DNA of 64,000 nt from Gloeomargarita lithophora Alchichica-D10 (GCF_001870225.1 NZ_CP017675.1:1867791-1931790); one strand, 5' to 3'; counted from the stretch's first letter, positions 8,489-64,000 are shown. Program-made: numbers and translations. The notes: generated from the sequence alone by a model not told the origin.

Positions 8489-9301
8489 CTACCCCAAGGC
8501 AAGGGTCTGCATCAGCCAAAAACCCTGAAGATTTTCGGCGTGTGGGTCGGTTTGAATTGCTAAAAAATGCACCCCCTGCGCCTGGGTCTGGGCGGTCTGA
8601 AACCCCACCGCTTGCGAATTGCGAGGCGTAAATAACCACCGCTCCCCAATCCCCGTTTCTAAAATCACCCGTTCCCCCTCCACCTCAAATCCGGCCAACT
8701 CCCAACCACTCATCCAGGCGGCTAGGGCTTGCGCTCTGGGCGAATAGATAATTAACCCAGGGATAACGGTATCATTAGCCAGGTCAATGTATTGCCAAGG
8801 TAATAATTCCCCAAAGTCCGCCCAATCCGCCCCCTCCTGGCGAATTTGCCCCCACAGTAAATTTGCCCAAGCCCATTGTTGTCCCCGCAGGGCTTCCGGC
8901 AGGGGCTGGGGAGGAGATGATCCCTCCACCGGCGGGGGAGCGGCCAAGGGCTGAAATCCCGGCAGTTGACTATACACCGTTAGCCAGCGTTGGTTGAGCC
9001 AGTGCGCCAATGCCACCACCCGGCGGCTGGGCAGTACCGTCACCTGCAACCCCTCACAGGCGCGGGTGAGCATGGGCAACATGGGGGTACGAAACGCCCG
9101 CAGGTGGGTAATGCCATTGTCCCGCACCCAAGGAGCCAGGGTATCCCGCAACCATTGGCTATTTACCTGGTCGGGGGGGCAATTTTGGGCGATACAGTCC
9201 TCTGCCTGGGGGTTGCACAGCAGGAGTTCCCAAAGTTTTTTGCCCTGGTCATCCACCACCGGGCGGGCATAAAAATCCACCTCCCAAATCACCCGTGCCA
9301 T
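8489..9301 (-). CDS. Tab2/Atab2-family RNA-binding protein (DUF1092)
   Basis: The start at MARVIWEVDFYARP (ATG at 9299-9301) matches the Tab2 family N-terminus; the open frame continues to 9436, but those 45 residues are not family-like and would overlap glgP. The 270-aa product has WEVDFYARPVVDDQGKKLWE and LLPWQYIDLAND near residue 180, as in Tab2. In algae and plants Tab2 proteins promote translation of photosystem I mRNA and PSI/PSII assembly; a similar RNA-linked role is inferred here. The gap to glgP upstream is 5 bp, so the two are probably co-transcribed. Confidence 0.85.
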   Translation of the reverse strand: MARVIWEVDFYARPVVDDQGKKLWELLLCNPQAEDCIAQNCPPDQVNSQWLRDTLAPWVRDNGITHLRAFRTPMLPMLTRACEGLQVTVLPSRRVVALAHWLNQRWLTVYSQLPGFQPLAAPPPVEGSSPPQPLPEALRGQQWAWANLLWGQIRQEGADWADFGELLPWQYIDLANDTVIPGLIIYSPRAQALAAWMSGWELAGFEVEGERVILETGIGERWLFTPRNSQAVGFQTAQTQAQGVHFLAIQTDPHAENLQGFWLMQTLALG

Positions 9302-9306
9302 GCCCC

Positions 9307-11472
9307 CTAACCTTTGCCACTCAAGGCCAGTTCCGGGCTGGGGGCATAGATGTGGTTGATATAATCCTGCACCATGCGGGCGGTGTTGAACCGGGGGATA
9401 TTGGTGCGAATGGAAGCCTTCATCCGTTGTAACCATTGCCGGGGCAAGCCTTCCCCATCCCGGTCGTAGTACATGGGGATGATCTCATTTTCCAGCAGGC
9501 GGTACAGGGACTCGCTGTCCAATTGATCCTGGAGTTCTTGATTGCTCGTGTGCAGGTCTTCTCCAATCGCCCAGCCATTCACCCCGGCCTGGTAGCCCTC
9601 GCACCACCAACCGTCTAAAACGCTGAAATTGATCCCGCCGTTGAAACAGACCTTTTGGCCGCTGGTGCCGGAAGCCTCCAGGGGACGACGGGGATTATTC
9701 AGCCACAAATCCACCCCCTGCACCAACGCCCGCGCCGTGTGCATATCGTAATCTTCAATAAAAGCCACCCGTGGTTGGATGTCCGGGTCACGACACCATT
9801 CCATCAGGCGTTGGATAATCCGTTTACCCTCCTCATCGGCGGGGTGGGCTTTCCCGGCAAAAATCAACTGCACTGGCCGTTCCGAGTGGGTCAGCAACCG
9901 CTTCGCCCGTTCCGGGTCACGGATGATCAAATGCCCCCGCTTGTAGGGGCTAAACCGGCGGGCAAAGCCAATGGTCAGCACCTGCGGGTCAAGCCAACGG
10001 GCAATCGCCTCTAGTTGCTCCGGGGTCTCCCCCCGCTGTTCCCGGCTGGTAAATAAATGGCTACGGGTATAGCTAATCAAGCGTTGTTTCAGGGTTTGGT
10101 GCCGCTGCCACAGTTCCCGGTCAGGAATCTGGCTCACCCGCACCCACAGTTCCGGGTCGGGCAGGTGGGTTTCCCACTCAGGATGGACGTAAGTACGAAA
10201 TAATTCACTCACCAAGGGAGCCGTCCAAGTCTGGGCATGAACCCCGTTGGTAATCGCCCCAATCGGCACCTGCGCCACCGGCTGGTCGGGATAGAGAATT
10301 GACCACATCTGCCGGGACACCTCCCCGTGCAATTGACTCACCCCGTTGGCCGCCCGGGTCAACCGCAGAGCCAGCACCGTCATATTAAACGGCTCCCAGG
10401 GGTCGCCCAAGCGCCGGGCACCCAGGGCCAGAAACTGCTCCCGCGACAGATGCAACTGCGGCCAATAGCTGGCAAAAAACGAATCCATCAAATCCGGCGA
10501 AAAAGCATCATGCCCCGCCGGTACCGGGGTATGGGTGGTAAACACGCATTTCTGCCGCACCTGCCCTTCCACCCCATAAAACGACTGCCCCGTGCGTGCC
10601 ATTTCCCCCCTCGCCACCTCCAGCAAGGCAAAGGCCGCATGACCCTCATTCAGGTGATACACCCCCGGCTCCAGCCCCAGGGTTTGCAACAAACGCACCC
10701 CGCCGATTCCCAACAAAACCTCTTGGGCAATCCGGGTTTCCTGATTCCCCCCGTACAAATGGCCGGTCAACCAGCGGTCAATCGGGTCATTCTCCGCTAC
10801 ATCCGAATCCATCAGGTATAAATCCGTGCGTCCCACCCGCACCCGCCAAATCTGTGCCACCACCTGTCGCCCCCGAATCTCCACCGTCAAGGTCAGGGGT
10901 TCCCCGGTCGGGGAGCGCATTAGTTCTAGGGGCAGGTCGCTAAATTGATTGTCAATGTAATAATCTTCCTGCCAACCCTGGCGATTCAACCGTTGGCGAA
11001 AATAACCCTGCCGGTACAAAAGTCCCACCCCCACCAGCGGCAAAGCCAAATCCGAAGCCGACTTGAGGTGATCCCCCGCCAAAATCCCCAACCCCCCCGA
11101 ATAAATCGGTAGGGACTCGTGCAAACCAAATTCCGCACAAAAATAAGCCACCGGTCGCTCCGGGCTAATCTGGGGAGCCAAGGGACAATCCTGGAACTGC
11201 ATATACTGCCGAAACCGCACCATCAACGTTTGTACCATCTGCACATAGTCCGGGTCGGTCGCCACCGCATCCAACCGCTCCCGGCTCACCTTTTGCAAAA
11301 ACAGCACCGGGTTGTGATGACAGGCTTCCCAGAGTTGATGGTCAATAGTATTAAACAAGCGCAACTGCTGTCCCGACCACGTCCACCAATAGTTAAAAGA
11401 CAAGGGAGCCAATGGCTTCAGCCCCTGGGGTAAACGGTCTTGCAGAGTCAAGATCGGATCAAAATATGGCAT
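9307..11472 (-). CDS. glgP: alpha-glucan (glycogen) phosphorylase
   Basis: This enzyme releases glucose-1-phosphate from glycogen. The 721-aa protein is of the shorter alpha-glucan phosphorylase type: N-terminal LSFNYWWTWSGQQLRLF, then AYFCAEFGLHESLPIYSGGLG, LAGDHLKSASDL and VGVGLLYRQGYF. The C-terminal region contains FARRFSPYKRGHL and the PLP-site-like EASGTSGQKVCFNGG. The ATG at 11470-11472 (MPYFDPIL) is preferred over a start five codons upstream. It is followed after 5 bp by the Tab2-like gene. Glycogen breakdown in the dark is the expected role. Confidence 0.92.
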   Translation of the reverse strand: MPYFDPILTLQDRLPQGLKPLAPLSFNYWWTWSGQQLRLFNTIDHQLWEACHHNPVLFLQKVSRERLDAVATDPDYVQMVQTLMVRFRQYMQFQDCPLAPQISPERPVAYFCAEFGLHESLPIYSGGLGILAGDHLKSASDLALPLVGVGLLYRQGYFRQRLNRQGWQEDYYIDNQFSDLPLELMRSPTGEPLTLTVEIRGRQVVAQIWRVRVGRTDLYLMDSDVAENDPIDRWLTGHLYGGNQETRIAQEVLLGIGGVRLLQTLGLEPGVYHLNEGHAAFALLEVARGEMARTGQSFYGVEGQVRQKCVFTTHTPVPAGHDAFSPDLMDSFFASYWPQLHLSREQFLALGARRLGDPWEPFNMTVLALRLTRAANGVSQLHGEVSRQMWSILYPDQPVAQVPIGAITNGVHAQTWTAPLVSELFRTYVHPEWETHLPDPELWVRVSQIPDRELWQRHQTLKQRLISYTRSHLFTSREQRGETPEQLEAIARWLDPQVLTIGFARRFSPYKRGHLIIRDPERAKRLLTHSERPVQLIFAGKAHPADEEGKRIIQRLMEWCRDPDIQPRVAFIEDYDMHTARALVQGVDLWLNNPRRPLEASGTSGQKVCFNGGINFSVLDGWWCEGYQAGVNGWAIGEDLHTSNQELQDQLDSESLYRLLENEIIPMYYDRDGEGLPRQWLQRMKASIRTNIPRFNTARMVQDYINHIYAPSPELALSGKG

Positions 11473-55434: not shown

Positions 55435-55559
55435 GGTCAACCTGCGGGTCAATCAGCCGTAGTATAACCCGTTAAAGCCTAATTTTTTGTATTGTCCCCC
55501 GCTTGCCCTACGCTCGCCCTAAACTAGAGTCATGGGGTTCACAAGTGCAGGAATCAGTT

Positions 55560-56360
55560 ATGCCTTGGGGAATGGGTTTTGGGGTGACCGTGGTGGCCAT
55601 CTGGCTACTTGCGGGGCTAAAAATTGACCGGGAATACCAACGGGGGGTGATTTTTCGCCTAGGACGCTTGACAGGGATTCGTGGGCCAGGGTTGTACTGG
55701 ACTCTGCCGGTTATTGAACAAAAAGTCCAGGTGGATATTCGCACCAAAACCGTGGATATTCAACCCCAGGAAACCGTCACCGCTGATAGTGTGACCATCC
55801 GGGTAAATGCGGTTTTGTACTATCGAATTGTGGATGCTTCTAAGGCGATTAATCGGGTAGAAAATTACCAGCAAGCGGTGTATTTAGCTGCCCAAACTAC
55901 CCTGAGAAATGTGGTTGGTCAAAATATTTTAGATGATGTGTTGAAAAATCGGGATAAGGTGAATTTGCGTATCCAGGAAATTGTGGATGAAATGACCGAA
56001 CCCTGGGGTATTGATATTGAGCGGGTGGAGATGCGAGATGTGGAAATCCCCCTGGCGATGCAGCGGGCGATGGCCAAAGAAGCGGAAGCGGTGCGGGAAA
56101 AACGGGCCCGATTAATCAAAGCCGCTGCCGAGCAGGATGCTTCGGTGCAATTGGCTGCCGCCGCCAAGGAAATTAGCCAAAATCCCGCCGCTTTGGAATT
56201 ACGCCGCCTGCAAATGCTGACGGAAATTGGTGCCGAAAATAATACCACCACGATTATTATGGTGCCTGCGGATTTTGTGAATTTAGCCCAACGCTGGGCG
56301 GAATTTCCCCACGCTTCACCGGCGCAACATCAGCAGAAATTTACCAACGAAATGGGTTAG
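55560..56360 (+). CDS. SPFH/band 7 protein (slipin-type stomatin)
   Basis: The ATG at 55560 gives a 266-aa protein with an N-terminal membrane helix (GFGVTVVAIWLLAG) followed by the slipin signature EYQRGVIFRLGRLTGIRGPGL. The SPFH domain includes RTKTVDIQPQETVTADSV, and a coiled-coil segment rich in Ala and Glu follows. Bacterial slipins form oligomers in membrane microdomains, usually next to an NfeD protease-like gene. NfeD is not visible here. An upstream TTG extends the frame, but that part is not conserved-looking. Confidence 0.9.
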   Translation: MPWGMGFGVTVVAIWLLAGLKIDREYQRGVIFRLGRLTGIRGPGLYWTLPVIEQKVQVDIRTKTVDIQPQETVTADSVTIRVNAVLYYRIVDASKAINRVENYQQAVYLAAQTTLRNVVGQNILDDVLKNRDKVNLRIQEIVDEMTEPWGIDIERVEMRDVEIPLAMQRAMAKEAEAVREKRARLIKAAAEQDASVQLAAAAKEISQNPAALELRRLQMLTEIGAENNTTTIIMVPADFVNLAQRWAEFPHASPAQHQQKFTNEMG

Positions 56361-56698: not shown

Positions 56699-58828
56699 CT
56701 ATTGCAAACTACAGGGTTCCGGTTTGGGGAGGGTATGCAGACGCACTTGGTGGTCATCGGCACCGCTCAGTATCCGTAATTCCTGATGGTAGGGAGTGAT
56801 GCCAACGCTGTTGACTTTGCTCCGTAAATTGGCAACCGCTTTACCCTGAAACCAGTCACCACTACGTTGACCATTGGCCTGCAATGGCCAGAGCATCACC
56901 CGGCCATCATCCCCGCCGCTCACCAGGTAGCAAGCGCTGGGACTGAAAGCAACGGAGCGCACCGGCAGACCCCCATGCCCATCCAGCCATTGATCCATGA
57001 TTTCGCAGGAATTTTGCTTTTGTAAACAGGGTTCCAAATTCCAGAGGGTGATTGACCCCTGGGTAGTGCCCGTAACCATCAGGTTGGCGCGGCGGCGGGG
57101 CACACTGACGCTGGTGATATAGTCATCCTGCCCCCCGACCCGGTAGGGTAAACGCTGGATCGCCTTGGGGTTGGGGTCGCTCCAGGGCCACAGTTGAATT
57201 TGGTTGTACCGCCCGACTACGGCCAGGGTTTGCTCCGAAGTACCCACCACGGCCAAGCCATACACGGCAAAATCAAATTGATGGCGAACTAGATTGGTGG
57301 TTAGGTTTTGGGAGGCGGTGGGACGGGATTCGGGGTTGGCATTCCATTGCCGGACGAGGCCACTGCCGTGGCCGCTAAACAGGTAACGGGAACTATTGGT
57401 ATAGGCTAAAGCCAGGATGCGGTCGTCTTCCTGGGGGCTAAAGGCGGCGAAGGGGGTGGCGGAATCGGATAGTAAATCCCAGATTTGAATCCAGCCATTT
57501 TCTAACCCGGTGGCCAGCAGGTCCTCATCCGCTGGGCGCAACGCAAGGGTACGAACCGCCCGATTGGTGGTCGCTACGACCCCCAGGGGATGTAGGCGAT
57601 TGCCCACCACTTGCCACCGGCGCACGGTCTGGTCATCCGCACCGCTGAGGGCGGATTCCCCCAGTCCATCCAAGGTGACCGCATTGACTGGGCCGGTATG
57701 GTACACCGGTTGTCTCAGCCCTAAAAAACCACTCAGTGCCAAAAGCAACAACAGCACCAGTTGGAGCCAAATCGGCAGTAGGGGTTTGACCCGCAGGGTA
57801 AGGGAATGCTCAGCCGTTTGTATTTTGACGGACGGCTCCGCCAGGGTTGCTGACACCTGCAGGGTGCGCGTGGAAGGCCAGCCCACCCAAGGCCGTTGCG
57901 CCCGCACCAGTAAGTGCAATTGCTGTTGTTCCCCCGGGCGTAGGGATAAATGCTCCGGTAGCCCTTCCCCGGTTACCCCCGGCGGGGAGGACACCACCAA
58001 GGCCAAATCCTGGTAGAGGTTGCTGGTGTTGGTGGTGGTCAAGGTATATTCTGCCGGGGGGGGCTTTTTACCGGGGAACCACACCCGTTTGGGCGGAAAA
58101 GCGGCCACCGCCGGATGGCTGGTCAGTTGCACAAACCCGGAGACCAAGACCTCCAGCACCCCGGTGGCCTCCAGCGGGGTGACATCCGGGTGAACCAGGG
58201 TGACCGTCAATGGATGGGCTTGGCTCAAGGCTTGCTCAATGCCTGGGAGTTGGCAACGAAATTCCGTCTCCAGGATGGCACCGCCCTCAGGATGCACCCA
58301 CCGTTCCGCACCCCCCACCCACCAGTCCGGGGGCACACCGCTGATGGTCAACCGACCACTGAGGGGGTTCAGCCCCAGATTTGTCACCCGTACCGGCACC
58401 TCCAGCCTTTGCCCTGGGTAGGCTCGCAGTTGGGGCACGGGCAGTTCCAACCGCAATTGCCCCAAAACCATGGATTCCTGGACAAACAGGCGCACCACCT
58501 GCCGTTCTTCGGCACGCAACTCGATGGAAAACACCCGCACGGTCAGGTTCATTACCCCGGTAAACCCCGGCACCGGATTGTGGATCAGCCGCACCCCAAA
58601 GGTGGTGATGTCACCGGGGGGCTTTTTGGTGCTGATTTCGGGGGTCAACTGGTACCAGGCATGGGGGACATGGCCGGGGGTTTGCCCGGCGGCCTGGACT
58701 TCGACTTGAAAGCTGGCGAATTGCCGACTGGTATTCACCACCGTCAGGGTAAAATTCACCGGTGCCCCCCCTGGTCGGAACACCAAGTCGGTCTGGGACA
58801 CCTGTATCCGCATCACCGTGGTAGCCAT
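56699..58828 (-). CDS. Ig-like/TM/WD40 protein at the end of the injection-system operon
   Basis: The 709-aa protein has tandem Ig-like domains (residues ~5-345; LVFRPGGAPVNFTLTVVNTS, then DWWVGGAERWVHPEGG), one membrane helix (~350-372, PIWLQLVLLLLLALSGFLGL) and a C-terminal WD40 propeller (~380-700; e.g. VRSVAFSPSACYLVSGGDDG). No signal peptide precedes the Ig part, so orientation is unclear. It lies 6 bp after a receptor-like gene and is the last gene of the operon. A membrane anchor or docking platform for the contractile particle is inferred from context. It is not a core component that I can name. Confidence 0.8.
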   Translation of the reverse strand: MATTVMRIQVSQTDLVFRPGGAPVNFTLTVVNTSRQFASFQVEVQAAGQTPGHVPHAWYQLTPEISTKKPPGDITTFGVRLIHNPVPGFTGVMNLTVRVFSIELRAEERQVVRLFVQESMVLGQLRLELPVPQLRAYPGQRLEVPVRVTNLGLNPLSGRLTISGVPPDWWVGGAERWVHPEGGAILETEFRCQLPGIEQALSQAHPLTVTLVHPDVTPLEATGVLEVLVSGFVQLTSHPAVAAFPPKRVWFPGKKPPPAEYTLTTTNTSNLYQDLALVVSSPPGVTGEGLPEHLSLRPGEQQQLHLLVRAQRPWVGWPSTRTLQVSATLAEPSVKIQTAEHSLTLRVKPLLPIWLQLVLLLLLALSGFLGLRQPVYHTGPVNAVTLDGLGESALSGADDQTVRRWQVVGNRLHPLGVVATTNRAVRTLALRPADEDLLATGLENGWIQIWDLLSDSATPFAAFSPQEDDRILALAYTNSSRYLFSGHGSGLVRQWNANPESRPTASQNLTTNLVRHQFDFAVYGLAVVGTSEQTLAVVGRYNQIQLWPWSDPNPKAIQRLPYRVGGQDDYITSVSVPRRRANLMVTGTTQGSITLWNLEPCLQKQNSCEIMDQWLDGHGGLPVRSVAFSPSACYLVSGGDDGRVMLWPLQANGQRSGDWFQGKAVANLRSKVNSVGITPYHQELRILSGADDHQVRLHTLPKPEPCSLQ

Positions 58829-58834
58829 CCCAAC

Positions 58835-60250
58835 CTAGACGGAACGATCGGTTGGGGGAACATCCTGGCGCAGAGCCGCCGCCTCTTGCAATAACCCTTG
58901 CCACCGTTGGGTTTGATTCCCCGTCAAGGGTTTACTCCGGGAACCTTCCAACTCCGCCTTGAGTTCCTGCATCCGACTGTGGAGATTTTCCTCCCGTTGA
59001 TGGATCATCTCGGCCATGTCCCGAAACACCCGTGCCAATTCCCCCAGTTCATCCTGCCGTTGTACCAAATCCGCCAGCATCGCCGGGGTAAATTTATGGG
59101 TTTCAATCGCCTGCGCCGCTTGGCTGAGCAGCTCCACCGGGCGGGTCACCTGCCGCGCCAACCACCAACCAAAAAAGCCGCTGAATACCATCATGCCCAG
59201 ACCCATGACCAGCACCACCCGCGCCCCCTGGCGGGCACCCTGAATCAAAGGCTCCTGGGGAATGATGGCCACGATCCACCACTTGATGGCACCGGAATTG
59301 TCCCCCAAACGGCTGGCTAAAACCAGATAGGTTTGGCCCGCCAAACGGGTGCTGACCTGGTTAATTTCATTTTCCCGTTCCGGGAGCATCAACTGGCGAC
59401 CAAGAATGGCAGCGGAAGCCCGGATCAGGGGCGACGAACTTTGCTCCAGGGTCAGGAGATTTGGGTCGCTGGTGGCGGTTGGTTGGGCAGAACTCCCCAA
59501 CAATTCCCCGGCTTCGTTGATAATGTAGGTCACCGACCCCGGCGCAATTTTCAGGGCGCGCAGATACTGATTCAACTCATCCAGGGGAATGGCCGCCCCC
59601 ACCACCCCCCGGAATGCCCCGGGTTTTTGGTTCGGGGTCAAACGGGGAGAACGTTCATACACTGGCATCACCGGTTGTAGCACCGGCACCTTCAGGTAGG
59701 CAGAAACCACCACCGGCCCCCAGACCAAGCGCCCTGACTGTTTCGCCGCCTGATAGCCAGTGCGGGTGCGTTGATCCAGTTCAATCGGTTGGCCAAAGGG
59801 GGTGCGTTGACCGTTGGCATCCAGCCGATAGGGGACGACTTTCCCGCCGGTCTGAGCATTCCGCAGGCGCAGGATTAGCCCCCGGTCTTCCGTTTGCTCA
59901 AACCGAGTCAGATTCCCCGTCGTGTCCGCGTAGTAAACATTGCGTAACACCGTGTCTCCCTGGATCAAACTGTAGAGAATCTGTTCAACTTTCATGGGAA
60001 AGGTACGATCCAGGGGCAGTACCGCCAGTTCATTGGCAATGGTGTTCAAGGAATTTTCGACCGCATCAAAATAAGTCCGCAAGCTGTTCTGCACCCCCAC
60101 GACGGTTTCCTCGGCCAACTGCTGCACGATGGTATCCGTGGTACGCCGGGTGTGGAGATAGACAAAGGCCACCGCCGCCGCCGTCACCGTGATGATGGGC
60201 AGAACCAAAAGGATCGAAGCCGTGCGTTTGAGCGAACCGGGCTTGAACAT
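58835..60250 (-). CDS. two-pass membrane sensor with Cache-like domain and HAMP, no output domain
   Basis: The 471-aa protein starts MFKPGSLKRTASILLVLPII (ATG at 60248-60250); the frame upstream to 60334 is not family-like. TM1 is at ~11-33. A large extracytoplasmic Cache-like domain follows (~35-350), with NSLRTYFDAVENSLNTIANE and YADTTGNLTRFEQ. TM2 is at ~355-378 (VLVMGLGMMVFSGFFGWWL), then HAMP and a coiled coil (EMIHQREENLHSRMQELKAE). No kinase, cyclase or methyl-accepting domain follows. In the injection-system operon it could pass an outside signal to the machine; this is inference. Confidence 0.82.
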   Translation of the reverse strand: MFKPGSLKRTASILLVLPIITVTAAAVAFVYLHTRRTTDTIVQQLAEETVVGVQNSLRTYFDAVENSLNTIANELAVLPLDRTFPMKVEQILYSLIQGDTVLRNVYYADTTGNLTRFEQTEDRGLILRLRNAQTGGKVVPYRLDANGQRTPFGQPIELDQRTRTGYQAAKQSGRLVWGPVVVSAYLKVPVLQPVMPVYERSPRLTPNQKPGAFRGVVGAAIPLDELNQYLRALKIAPGSVTYIINEAGELLGSSAQPTATSDPNLLTLEQSSSPLIRASAAILGRQLMLPERENEINQVSTRLAGQTYLVLASRLGDNSGAIKWWIVAIIPQEPLIQGARQGARVVLVMGLGMMVFSGFFGWWLARQVTRPVELLSQAAQAIETHKFTPAMLADLVQRQDELGELARVFRDMAEMIHQREENLHSRMQELKAELEGSRSKPLTGNQTQRWQGLLQEAAALRQDVPPTDRSV

Positions 60251-60281
60251 CAGCCATGACTCCCGGGGGTGATTACCTCCA

Positions 60282-61577
60282 TTATGTCGTTTCCCCCTGC
60301 AACCCCTGGCGACAGCGATGCACGTGCCAGGCAAAATGTAGCAGATTCACCCCCAATTCCTGCGCCGCCCGAATGGTCTCCCGCTCCAGGGTATCATCGC
60401 CGCCCCACCCCTGGGACAGGGCACCGGTCACCAGCACCAGCCCCCCCCACTGGGACACCCGCAGGGGGCGTTTGCCCACGGACGGCCACGCCCCAAACGT
60501 AAAGGGTTGACAGCGCAGGGGATGCCCCCGACCCACGGTGCCAGAATTGGTGGGGGGCTGACCAAACAAGACCATTTTCACCGGCACAGTCAGGGCATCG
60601 TAGGCTTGGGTCAAACTGGCCTCCACCCCCCGCAATTCCTGGCTGAGTTTAATTGACAATTCCCGGGTTTCCGCCCGTTCGCGACTGGCCGCCACCGCTT
60701 CCAGCAATTCCGCCTGCATGGCTTGCAATTGGGCAATTTGGGGGCTATTGGCTTCCACCAGCACCACCCCGCCCCGGTGCAAATAGTCCCGAATTTGGCT
60801 CTGCGCCGCCGCCGGAAGCGTGGTCACCTGCGGGTGGGTGAGGTAAATCAAATCGTAGCGCAACAGGTCGGGGGTCACCAAACTCACCGGTAATAACCCC
60901 ACCGGTTCCGCCACCCGCAGGGCTGGGTACAACCCCCGACAGGCGGTGAGCAATTCCCCCCAGGGCACGGGGCCATTGTCCAACTGAGCCACCCGCACCA
61001 GCGCTTGGGGTCGCAGTTGCGCCGGTACCCGAAACCGCACATCCAGGTGATTGGCCTCCGGGAATAGGGGCTGGGGAGGAATCTCCAAGCCATTGCTCCC
61101 CGCCGTCAGCACCACCCGACACAGTTCAATCTCCTCCGGGCTGGGGGGGACATTTTTTTCATCCACCCGAAAAGTCTCCTGGACAATATCCTGGGTAGGC
61201 GTGGTCACCAAACCCGCCGGGTCAACATAACGCAACACCAAATACACCGTCACCGCCTGCTCCTGATTCGGCACGGTGGTAATGCGAAAATCCAGCGGTT
61301 CCGGCACAATCACCGGATTCCCCAGCCCATCAATCCCCCAACCGGGATGAATCCGCACCCACCGCCGGTCCGCATACTCGGCGGCTACCTGGGGCGGCGG
61401 CGGAATCACCTGCACCCCTAGCCCCTGCACAATGCCGCCGGTGCATAACCCCTGGTAGTACAGATTTTGCCGTTGCCGCAAATACCCGTGGGCACACTGC
61501 CACCGCTGGGCATTCAGCAGTAACCCATCCCGCACCTCCAGCCGCTCCAAAGGCTTTAACCCATTAACTGGCTCCAT
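60282..61577 (-). CDS. injection-system-associated protein with C-terminal DUF4159
   Basis: The 431-aa soluble protein has an N-terminal half (LNAQRWQCAHGYLRQRQNLY, then VQVIPPPPQVAAEYADR) seen in proteins next to contractile-injection baseplate genes. The C-terminal half is DUF4159-like, a GATase-type fold with LRYDLIYLTHPQVTTLPAAA and IRDYLHRGGVVLVEAN. Its start overlaps the previous gene by 14 bp, implying coupled translation. The role is unknown; an accessory baseplate or assembly factor is a reasonable guess. The gene after it follows at 31 bp. Confidence 0.72.
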   Translation of the reverse strand: MEPVNGLKPLERLEVRDGLLLNAQRWQCAHGYLRQRQNLYYQGLCTGGIVQGLGVQVIPPPPQVAAEYADRRWVRIHPGWGIDGLGNPVIVPEPLDFRITTVPNQEQAVTVYLVLRYVDPAGLVTTPTQDIVQETFRVDEKNVPPSPEEIELCRVVLTAGSNGLEIPPQPLFPEANHLDVRFRVPAQLRPQALVRVAQLDNGPVPWGELLTACRGLYPALRVAEPVGLLPVSLVTPDLLRYDLIYLTHPQVTTLPAAAQSQIRDYLHRGGVVLVEANSPQIAQLQAMQAELLEAVAASRERAETRELSIKLSQELRGVEASLTQAYDALTVPVKMVLFGQPPTNSGTVGRGHPLRCQPFTFGAWPSVGKRPLRVSQWGGLVLVTGALSQGWGGDDTLERETIRAAQELGVNLLHFAWHVHRCRQGLQGETT

Positions 61578-62619
61578 TTCCCCCCTCCTGCCAGGACGTT
61601 ATCTCCAAATCATAGGTACAAAAAGCGGGTTTTTCCTGGTCAATCACCGCCCGCACCAAATCCACATCCACCCGTTCCGGCGCATCGGCACGCAACCAAA
61701 CCCGAAAATGATAGGGTCGCCCCGCCCCCAACACCGCCGTTTCCCCCACCACCGCCTCCCCCAAAATCAACCCCCGTTGGAAAAATTCCTGAATGCCAAT
61801 GTGTTTCCGATATTCTTCCGATTCTTGTTCATCCAAGGGCAAACCCGTCGCCAGATGTAAAAATAACCGCAGCCCCCGACGGGTACCCCGCCATTGGTAC
61901 AAAGAAAAGGCATTGTAAATCAACTGCCGCAAAACCTGAACTTCCAAACGCAAAGGACTCCGCCACCCCACCCAATGGCTGAGAAAAGGCAACCAACTCA
62001 CCGGTGCCGTGCGGGGGTCAAGGTACGCCCACAACCCATCCAACATCTGCACATCCGGTTCAAACGTCTGCTCAAAAATTGCCAACAACCGCCCCAAAAA
62101 ATCACTCTGGCGGTAAATTTTGGGTAAAAAATCCAAATAACGCGCCGGGGGACGCACGGACAATTCCAAGGGCAAAACCTCCAACAGCCGCCATTCCTGC
62201 TCCGGCAAACGGCCATAGATGTGCAGTACCCCACTAAAATCCAAGACCAAACTCGTCCCCGGGCGCAGCGCTTGCTGATCCTCCCAAAAATTCCCCGGCA
62301 CCGCCACCACCAGCGACACCGGGCGCCGTTCCCCAGGAGCCAACACCCCCTCTGCCCCCAATAAAAAACACCAACCCCGGGGCACCTCCCCCACCAAACT
62401 CACCCCCAACTCCAGGGGGGCAGACCCCCGGTATTCCAACTGCAACGCCAATTCCTGCAACGCTCCCGCTGCCACCACCAAAGTCGCCTGCCGCCGGGGT
62501 TCCACCAGGGGCACCGCCGCCAATTCCCGCCCATACCCCTGGGACTGAAACGGGGTTAATGCCCCCACCATCGGTGCCAAACGTAACTGCAAAGTCGCCG
62601 TGTCCGGGGTAAAAGTCAT
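61564..62619 (-). CDS. baseplate/tail protein I (Cis12-like) with N-terminal Ig-like domain
   Basis: The C-terminal ~200 residues of this 351-aa protein match phage tail protein I (P2 gpI type): RYLDFLPKIYRQSDFLGRLL, TFEPDVQMLDGLWAYLDP, WLPFLSHWVGW and YQWRGTRRGLRLFLHLATG. Residues ~1-155 form an Ig-like beta domain, as also occurs in the last gene of the operon. Tail protein I joins the wedge proteins of the baseplate in contractile machines. The gene is 13 bp after the baseplate J gene. Together the two mark an extracellular-type contractile injection system rather than a prophage, since no phage genes follow. Confidence 0.85.
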   Translation of the reverse strand: MTFTPDTATLQLRLAPMVGALTPFQSQGYGRELAAVPLVEPRRQATLVVAAGALQELALQLEYRGSAPLELGVSLVGEVPRGWCFLLGAEGVLAPGERRPVSLVVAVPGNFWEDQQALRPGTSLVLDFSGVLHIYGRLPEQEWRLLEVLPLELSVRPPARYLDFLPKIYRQSDFLGRLLAIFEQTFEPDVQMLDGLWAYLDPRTAPVSWLPFLSHWVGWRSPLRLEVQVLRQLIYNAFSLYQWRGTRRGLRLFLHLATGLPLDEQESEEYRKHIGIQEFFQRGLILGEAVVGETAVLGAGRPYHFRVWLRADAPERVDVDLVRAVIDQEKPAFCTYDLEITSWQEGGNGAS

Positions 62620-62632
62620 AATTACAAAATTA

Positions 62633-64000
62633 TTACATTAAGTTCACACTATGCTGGGAACGCACCTGGCTATCCTCCCAGGAGCAGATCAACCCCTGAG
62701 AGCCGGGGTCAACAAAGGGCACGGGCGGCAACCGTTGCCAGCCATTGACCCGCCGTTGGATGGGGAACAACCGCACCTCCCCCAGGTATAAAATCATGGG
62801 AATTTTTTGTAATACGCCCACCACATCCGCCGGATAGAGCGTCCGTCCCAGCGGCCAGCCCTGCCCCGCCATGCCCCCGGTCAAGGGATGCAAAAACTGG
62901 TACAACGCCGTGCGAATCTGCCGCAAAACCGGCTCCCTGGCCTCCACATGGCGATAGGCTTCCTGCAAGGCCACCTCCACCTGCACCGCCACCCCCACGA
63001 AATCCGCACTGCGGCAGGCCACCTGCACCCCTAGGAGTTTACGTTCCTGCAAATAGGCTAAAATCTCGGTTTCGAGGGCGGGCGTGAGCGCAAAAGCCTC
63101 CGGGGGGGCACCCCGGCTCCGTTCCCCGCCGACCACCTGCGGCACCACCACCAGTTGTACCTGCCCCGGCTGATCCTGGGACACATAATGGCACCGGGCA
63201 ATCCGGCCTTGCCCCGCCTCCAGGGTCAACACCTCAAAATCTTCCGGGGTCACCGCCCGATTCCGACTGCGGAGTAACCGGGGCACCCGAATCACCGCCT
63301 GTTCCAGGGATTCCCCGTCGGTTCCCTGGCGCGCTGGGGCGTGGTTCATCACCTCGACCACGTAGGGCACCGCCGACTTGAGCACCCGGATTGCCCCCGC
63401 TTGCACATTCCCCTGCGCCCCCCCCCCAGTCCGATAGCGAGCCATCCGCAGGGTTGACCCGCGGGGCGGGATTGCCCCGTACTGAAATTCCAACGGACCG
63501 GCGGTTAATTCCCCCCCCGTGCCGCTCCGTTGCCAGGTCGCCCGCTCCTGGGTGGACTGCACCAACTGGCTGGCCTCCCGCACCAGGGGGCCAAACTGCA
63601 CCGTTCCCGTCATGCCATCGAGGGTGTAATGCAAATCCTCCGGCCCGGAACTGGCAAAATCCGGCACCTCCTGCCAACTTTGCACCAACCCGGAGGGCAA
63701 GGTGATCAAAAGCTCCTCCCCCGCTTCCCGTTGCAGTACCGGGCTTTGCCGCAGTTGGAACCGTTGCCCCGGCGTGCCATCACTCACCCCCACCACCTCC
63801 ATTTCCACCCGTTGGCATTGGGTCGCAGGCACCGTCCCCCCCAAGCTCCGCACCTGCATTCCCACCACCCGCGGGGCGGCACTATAGCCCGGTTCCCCCT
63901 GGCTGATGTGATAACTACACCGCAACCACCGCCCCCGGTAGGAGGTAAACTGAGTCACCGGCCAGGCTTGGGGCAAATGGATCAACACCTCTACCCCCTG
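62633..64000 (-). CDS. baseplate J/gp6-like protein (Cis11-like), N-terminus outside the window
   Basis: The frame is open through the right edge; the visible 456 residues are the C-terminal part. The family block SRNRAVTPEDFEVLTLEAGQ with IARCHYV is typical of putative baseplate assembly (gpJ/gp6-type) proteins. It is followed by LTPALETEILAYLQERKLLG, VAVQVEVALQEAY and GRTLYPADVVGVLQKIP. These form the wedge ring of contractile tails. Upstream genes (sheath, tube, spike, ATPase) would lie beyond 64000. It is the first visible gene of the minus-strand operon. Confidence 0.85.
   Translation of the reverse strand, partial: QGVEVLIHLPQAWPVTQFTSYRGRWLRCSYHISQGEPGYSAAPRVVGMQVRSLGGTVPATQCQRVEMEVVGVSDGTPGQRFQLRQSPVLQREAGEELLITLPSGLVQSWQEVPDFASSGPEDLHYTLDGMTGTVQFGPLVREASQLVQSTQERATWQRSGTGGELTAGPLEFQYGAIPPRGSTLRMARYRTGGGAQGNVQAGAIRVLKSAVPYVVEVMNHAPARQGTDGESLEQAVIRVPRLLRSRNRAVTPEDFEVLTLEAGQGRIARCHYVSQDQPGQVQLVVVPQVVGGERSRGAPPEAFALTPALETEILAYLQERKLLGVQVACRSADFVGVAVQVEVALQEAYRHVEAREPVLRQIRTALYQFLHPLTGGMAGQGWPLGRTLYPADVVGVLQKIPMILYLGEVRLFPIQRRVNGWQRLPPVPFVDPGSQGLICSWEDSQVRSQHSVNLM

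Follow-up and report, generated by a model that had tools for sequence, protein, structure and literature searches.

Baseplate genes and co-inherited single-pass Ig-TM proteins in a distinct cyanobacterial lineage of contractile injection systems

It is an open question how intracellular contractile systems locate a membrane and what triggers their firing. In Streptomyces, the membrane protein CisA is needed for firing and contraction of the contractile injection system (CIS) (PMC12237407). In the thylakoid-anchored system of Anabaena (tCIS), the anchor is a TM helix within Cis13 itself, found in filamentous species only (PMC8894136). The T6SS protein TssK, which resembles phage receptor-binding proteins, binds the T6SS membrane complex (PMC6300606), and in the haloarchaeal CIS a lineage-specific membrane protein correlates with membrane-bound action (PMC11566945). 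CisA, the one accessory membrane protein known for the Streptomyces system, has no proven contact with the particle and is itself present only in part of lineage IId.

Here we analyse a 64,000-nucleotide stretch of DNA from Gloeomargarita lithophora Alchichica-D10 (the window; bases 1867791-1931790 of the single 3,049,282-base chromosome), at the end of which lie baseplate and membrane protein genes of a CIS. The lineage to which this CIS belongs has a candidate docking module whose genes are strictly co-inherited, and some species encode a receptor next to it.

Gene run and the rest of the machine

Five tightly packed minus-strand ORFs had been predicted to form an operon. Their positions and domains (WD40, dCache_1 with HAMP, DUF4159, Tail_P2_I and Baseplate_J, all above Pfam cut-offs) were correct, as was the packing, with gaps of 13 bp between baseplate J and tail I, 31 bp between the DUF4159 and Cache-HAMP genes (if the receptor starts at residue 29, the ATG at 60250, which we prefer to the TTG at 60334) and 6 bp between the Cache-HAMP and Ig-TM-WD40 genes, and a 14 bp overlap of tail I with the DUF4159 gene. 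The tight run thus stood, but not its limits: the window edge truncates the J gene, and gp25 and a LuxR-type regulator gene lie upstream of it. The full run has seven genes, the five being those at its 3′ end; LuxR overlaps gp25, and gp25 overlaps J, by a few bases each:

65199-65813, minus strand, beyond the window: LuxR-type regulator, upstream of gp25, heading the run
64807-65211, minus strand, beyond the window: gp25, upstream of J
62633..64810, minus strand (62633..64000 in the window): baseplate J-like protein (TIGR02243, Cis11-like), 725 aa, Pfam Baseplate_J
61564..62619, minus strand: tail I-type baseplate wedge protein (TIGR02242), Pfam Tail_P2_I
60282..61577, minus strand: DUF4159 protein, 431 aa, Pfam DUF4159
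58835..60250, minus strand: Cache-HAMP receptor, Pfam dCache_1 and HAMP
56699..58828, minus strand: Ig-TM-WD40 protein, bitopic, 709 aa, Pfam WD40

About a quarter of eCIS loci are adjoined by LuxR-type (GerE) regulators (PMC8213781). A scan 3′ of the run returned promoters at chance level and weak terminators; on the plus strand, an SPFH/band-7-like gene with no sign of CIS membership (window 55503-56360) converges on the Ig-TM-WD40 gene.

Sheath and tube genes, which were expected just past position 64,000 and whose lack upstream was to count against a CIS, are indeed missing from the immediate neighbourhood, but other loci of the same chromosome carry both. The CIS genes of G. lithophora are spread over four chromosomal loci, and a full set (sheath, tube, gp25, baseplate J, spike, Pvc16 terminator and AAA+ ATPase) is reached over three of them. 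The sole sheath gene lies at 442-444 kb, 1.5 Mb from the run, and is followed by genes for two tube proteins, two small proteins, a Pvc16-type terminator and an AAA+ ATPase. At 2.93 Mb, another tube-like protein, a long repetitive protein, a Cis7-like protein and a VgrG-like spike are encoded; ahead of them lies the gene for a protein that combines a predicted TM helix with a PstS-like domain. The fourth locus, at 488.8-492.9 kb, encodes a second bitopic protein, Ig-TM-Ig, which is here separate from other CIS genes; relatives keep it beside Ig-TM-WD40. The rows for the two further membrane proteins are:

Chromosome 488796-492901 (L197:6797-8515 and 8515-10902): Ig-TM-Ig gene, then a gene at the position of the relatives’ TPR gene
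Chromosome 2930183-2932522 (L049:2184-4523): one protein with a kinase-like region, a TM helix and a PstS-like substrate-binding domain

As predicted, the cluster is part of a contractile injection system and not a prophage: sheath, tube, spike, Pvc16 and AAA+ genes are on the chromosome, and phage kin are scarce. A prophage origin was rejected, with a single weak phage match for baseplate J and none for the Ig-TM region. The IcmF/TssM family (PF06761) is absent from the genome.

Domain make-up of the baseplate and membrane proteins

The Ig-TM-WD40 protein consists of an Ig-like region (residues 1-347), a TM helix (353-369) and a WD40 beta-propeller (377-702). Its structural model has confident Ig sandwiches, TM helix and propeller (pLDDT 87.9), with the relative placement of the domains uncertain (pTM 0.51); three sandwiches make up the Ig-like region, judging from the strand pattern of the model, and the model has propeller matches. 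The Ig-TM part is homologous to Ig-TM-Ig (probability 98.8). Charges flanking the TM helix point to no definite orientation, while the lack of a signal peptide and a winged-helix-like N-terminus, seen by eye in Ig-TM-Ig relatives, suggest that the N-terminus lies inside the cytoplasm. We also considered Ig-TM-WD40 as a CisA homologue and rejected this, since the protein encoded at the cisA position of Streptomyces clavuligerus matched neither it nor any other CIS protein of the genome, nor any of 80 cyanobacterial loci.

The tail I protein carries an extra N-terminal Ig-like domain of ~160 aa that is missing from its Streptomyces counterpart (190 aa). This domain is related to the Ig domains of both membrane proteins (probability 86-89 over ~70 residues), matches that are short and concern a common type of domain. 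The first 120 residues of the DUF4159 protein match the NCBI family CIS13 (E 4e-6, 26 bits), a partial match given the full-length equivalog cut-off of 370 bits; the same N-terminal match is found in 30 of 30 DUF4159 homologues (best E 5.5e-15). Top PDB matches of its model, in which residues 1-47 are of low confidence, are an uncharacterised Haliangium protein and TssK (ranks 2-4; E 0.01-0.02, low TM-score); in a viral library, its weak matches include receptor-binding and minor tail proteins of phages. Profile searches of PDB sequences did not recover TssK, a PHROGs search returned nothing useful, and hydropathy revealed no TM segment. We propose that the DUF4159 protein is a baseplate-to-membrane adaptor and that Ig-TM-WD40 docks the baseplate at the membrane.

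In the Cache-HAMP protein there are two TM helices and no domain for enzymatic output. A C-terminal cyclic-nucleotide-binding domain is present in 9 of 17 aligned members and missing from the Gloeomargarita copy. Elsewhere, two or three such receptors occur in tandem (L121, L165 and others), often ending in a cyclic-nucleotide-binding domain.

Co-inheritance and kinship of the system

Among 291 genomes of the phylum Cyanobacteria, Ig-TM-WD40, Ig-TM-Ig, the DUF4159 protein and one sheath clade (full-length sheaths at 690 bits or more) occur in the identical 18 genomes, spread over 9 families and 16 genera; matches are weak and partial in one of the 18 (G066), and the 18 are mutually related and do not amount to 18 independent events. 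None of the three proteins is found in other genomes with lower-scoring sheath matches, and in none of the 291 has a single partner been lost without the others. The one other sampled species of the genus is missing the entire set.

A further scan of named genomes gave 80 loci (draft genomes and simple ORF calls enter into the counts here and above) and showed the predicted five-gene order again in many cyanobacterial genera, within the recurrent order gp25-J-I-DUF4159-(0-3 Cache-HAMP)-Ig-TM-WD40-(Ig-TM-Ig). Because it recurs so widely, this gene order is far beyond chance. The gp25-J pair is present in 74/80 loci and DUF4159 in 67/80; where at least 2.5 kb lies beyond DUF4159, Ig-TM-WD40 is found downstream in 32 of 61 loci, and Ig-TM-Ig comes next after it in 22 of 25. 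A whole-genome search of 18 of these named genomes, most without an adjacent or readable Ig-TM-WD40 gene in the CIS locus, returned a long match spanning the Ig, TM and WD40 parts in every one. Of the two membrane genes expected in related loci, Ig-TM-WD40 is therefore constant, whereas Cache-HAMP is optional: no copy in 15 of the 32 Ig-TM-WD40 loci, one in 14, two in 2 and three in 1. The receptor gene is thus present in 17/32 loci with Ig-TM-WD40 and in none without it.

The plasmid cluster of Pseudanabaena sp. ABRG5-3 holds genes for an SBP protein, tube, Cis7-like protein, VgrG, PAAR, gp25, J, tail I, DUF4159, Cache and Ig-TM-WD40 together, the DUF4159 and Ig-TM-WD40 genes being annotated merely as “hypothetical”. 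A plasmid of Oscillatoria nigro-viridis (L112) carries gp25, J and tail I of the same lineage with DUF4157 proteins nearby, and is devoid of DUF4159 and Ig-TM genes; DUF4157 is a known eCIS toxin marker. On a Brasilonema plasmid (L110:1-5618), the CIS tube gene comes after genes for a sensor histidine kinase, a response regulator, a kinase-like protein and an FHA protein, which suggests phospho-signalling near that CIS.

The protein with kinase-like region, TM helix and substrate-binding domain scores highly in 17 of the 18 CIS genomes and lies beside CIS genes in several loci, making it a further candidate sensor. Its co-inheritance, the LuxR gene at the head of the run and the TPR-like proteins that come after Ig-TM-Ig in relatives would also suit a module that serves assembly or expression control (as scaffold, chaperone or membrane-bound regulator) and has no part in docking or firing. 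We regard this as unlikely, however, since two features point to the particle itself: the DUF4159 protein has traits like those of CIS13 and TssK, and an Ig domain forms part of tail I, a baseplate protein.

Somewhat less likely still, the membrane proteins could be cargo, or could bind receptors as part of an extracellular system that the cell releases; their genes lie at the 3′ end, toward which eCIS toxin genes tend in their operons (PMC8213781), and WD40 and Ig are binding domains. Against this, the membrane proteins are strictly present with the sheath clade, unlike variable toxins, and Ig-TM-WD40 has a single conserved architecture, with the WD40 part retained in 29 of 29 relatives. A TM helix in the middle of the protein would be odd in a soluble fibre, and the gene relocates to other loci without being lost.

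By score, the best reading is that the system is nearest to the cytoplasmic system of Streptomyces and not to the tCIS of Anabaena. Among solved structures, the sheath scores 385 bits against Streptomyces coelicolor CISSc and 188 bits against Anabaena tCIS (All3325), baseplate J is nearest to CISSc (366 bits), the spike scores 186 bits against the Streptomyces CIS and 105 against tCIS (All3320), and tail I has its sole match in the Streptomyces counterpart (44 bits). A genuine tCIS-type sheath, with 842 bits to the All3325 type, was found in a genome without Ig-TM-WD40 and branches apart in the sheath tree. In that tree the lineage is monophyletic (99/99, all bootstrap trees) and separate from tandem-sheath and tCIS-type sheaths; branches are long and no common clade with Streptomyces or Deinococcus is resolved, and we use the tree for lineage monophyly only and not to place the system in lineage IId. 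Tandem-sheath (L068-L077) and tCIS-type (L079) loci are two further cyanobacterial CIS types, one tandem-sheath locus (L072) being nearest to the Streptomyces system, and several genomes harbour sheaths of more than one type.

The lineage extends to the order Gloeobacterales, where both the sheath clade and Ig-TM-WD40 are present in six of nine genomes, and the three genomes without Ig-TM-WD40 are also without that sheath clade (6/6 vs 0/3). In two single-contig genomes of the order, which we take to represent Gloeobacter violaceus and G. kilaueensis, the Ig-TM-Ig gene comes next after that of Ig-TM-WD40. Gloeobacter violaceus has no thylakoids (PMC8069770). Because thylakoid-less Gloeobacterales carry the same lineage, thylakoid anchoring in general is unlikely, and the link to the thylakoid-anchored system drawn in the original prediction is not borne out. 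That this system is nevertheless anchored in the thylakoid as in Anabaena, its two membrane proteins standing in for the membrane helix of Cis13, is highly improbable: the host is cyanobacterial, the DUF4159 protein matches the CIS13 family by sequence and tCIS is the phylum’s known membrane-anchored type (PMC8894136), but the sheath and spike are nearer to Streptomyces, the true tCIS-type sheath branches elsewhere in a genome without these proteins, the type genus of Gloeobacterales is thylakoid-less and the DUF4159 protein has no TM helix.

Proposed docking module and known systems

Given these results, we think it probable that the genes encode a baseplate wedge together with a membrane-docking and sensing module, belonging to the CIS of a distinct cyanobacterial lineage. 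Assembly of the syringe would be cytoplasmic, and the wedge formed by gp25, J and tail I would bear the CIS13/TssK-like DUF4159 adaptor at its edge. Both this adaptor and tail I, through its Ig domain, may bind the presumably cytoplasmic Ig domains of Ig-TM-WD40 and Ig-TM-Ig, and these two proteins would hold the particle end-on at the cytoplasmic membrane. The domain on the far side of the membrane, WD40 or Ig, could sense changes in the envelope or a ligand, together with Cache-HAMP where present; sensing would alter the dock, upon which the sheath would contract through the cell’s own membrane, with self-lysis, as in Streptomyces, or attack as the possible outcome.

The built-in anchor and trigger of the original prediction fit this proposal in part. 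Ig-TM-WD40 is a constant partner of the CIS, as an anchor should be, although docking itself is our inference. Cache-HAMP occurs in the run only alongside Ig-TM-WD40, which fits a trigger, but the receptor is optional; from its position and this link to Ig-TM-WD40 we infer that it may act on the CIS. We also put forward a bolder and more doubtful version, in which this is a further kind of membrane-docked cyanobacterial CIS without TssJLM, where the CIS13/TssK-like adaptor and the Ig-extended baseplate protein clip onto the two Ig-TM proteins and Cache-HAMP, often cyclic-nucleotide-binding, gates firing by a periplasmic signal. If true, a short protein chain would link a ligand to sheath contraction. 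More broadly, the lineage suggests that thylakoids are not a requirement for cyanobacterial syringes to dock at a membrane. The claim that the combination is undescribed agrees with the open-access papers searched, none of which links WD40 or DUF4159 to contractile injection systems.

Among known systems, the tCIS of Anabaena is likewise cyanobacterial and membrane-linked, and its anchoring protein Cis13 gives its name to the family that the DUF4159 protein matches. However, tCIS belongs to another sheath lineage, the Gloeomargarita lineage being found also in Gloeobacterales, and the TM helix of Cis13 is absent from the DUF4159 protein. The proposed division of labour recalls T6SS, in which the baseplate adaptor TssK joins the membrane complex (PMC6300606), the DUF4159 protein having a weak fold match to TssK; unlike T6SS, there is no IcmF/TssM here and the membrane partners are single-pass Ig-TM proteins. 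The haloarchaeal CIS (archaeal T6SS) likewise has a lineage-specific membrane protein, the putative anchor Hbor_38620, and is set apart, by description, by its clade (IIa) and by this other anchor. Closest of all by score is Streptomyces coelicolor CISSc (lineage IId), which has the nearest solved sheath, J, tail I and spike. In Streptomyces, the gene for bitopic CisA comes directly after those for the baseplate, the same place as the membrane protein genes here, whereas the Gloeomargarita system differs in its two Ig-TM paralogues, CIS13-like adaptor, Ig-extended tail I, optional Cache-HAMP receptor and genes spread over four loci.
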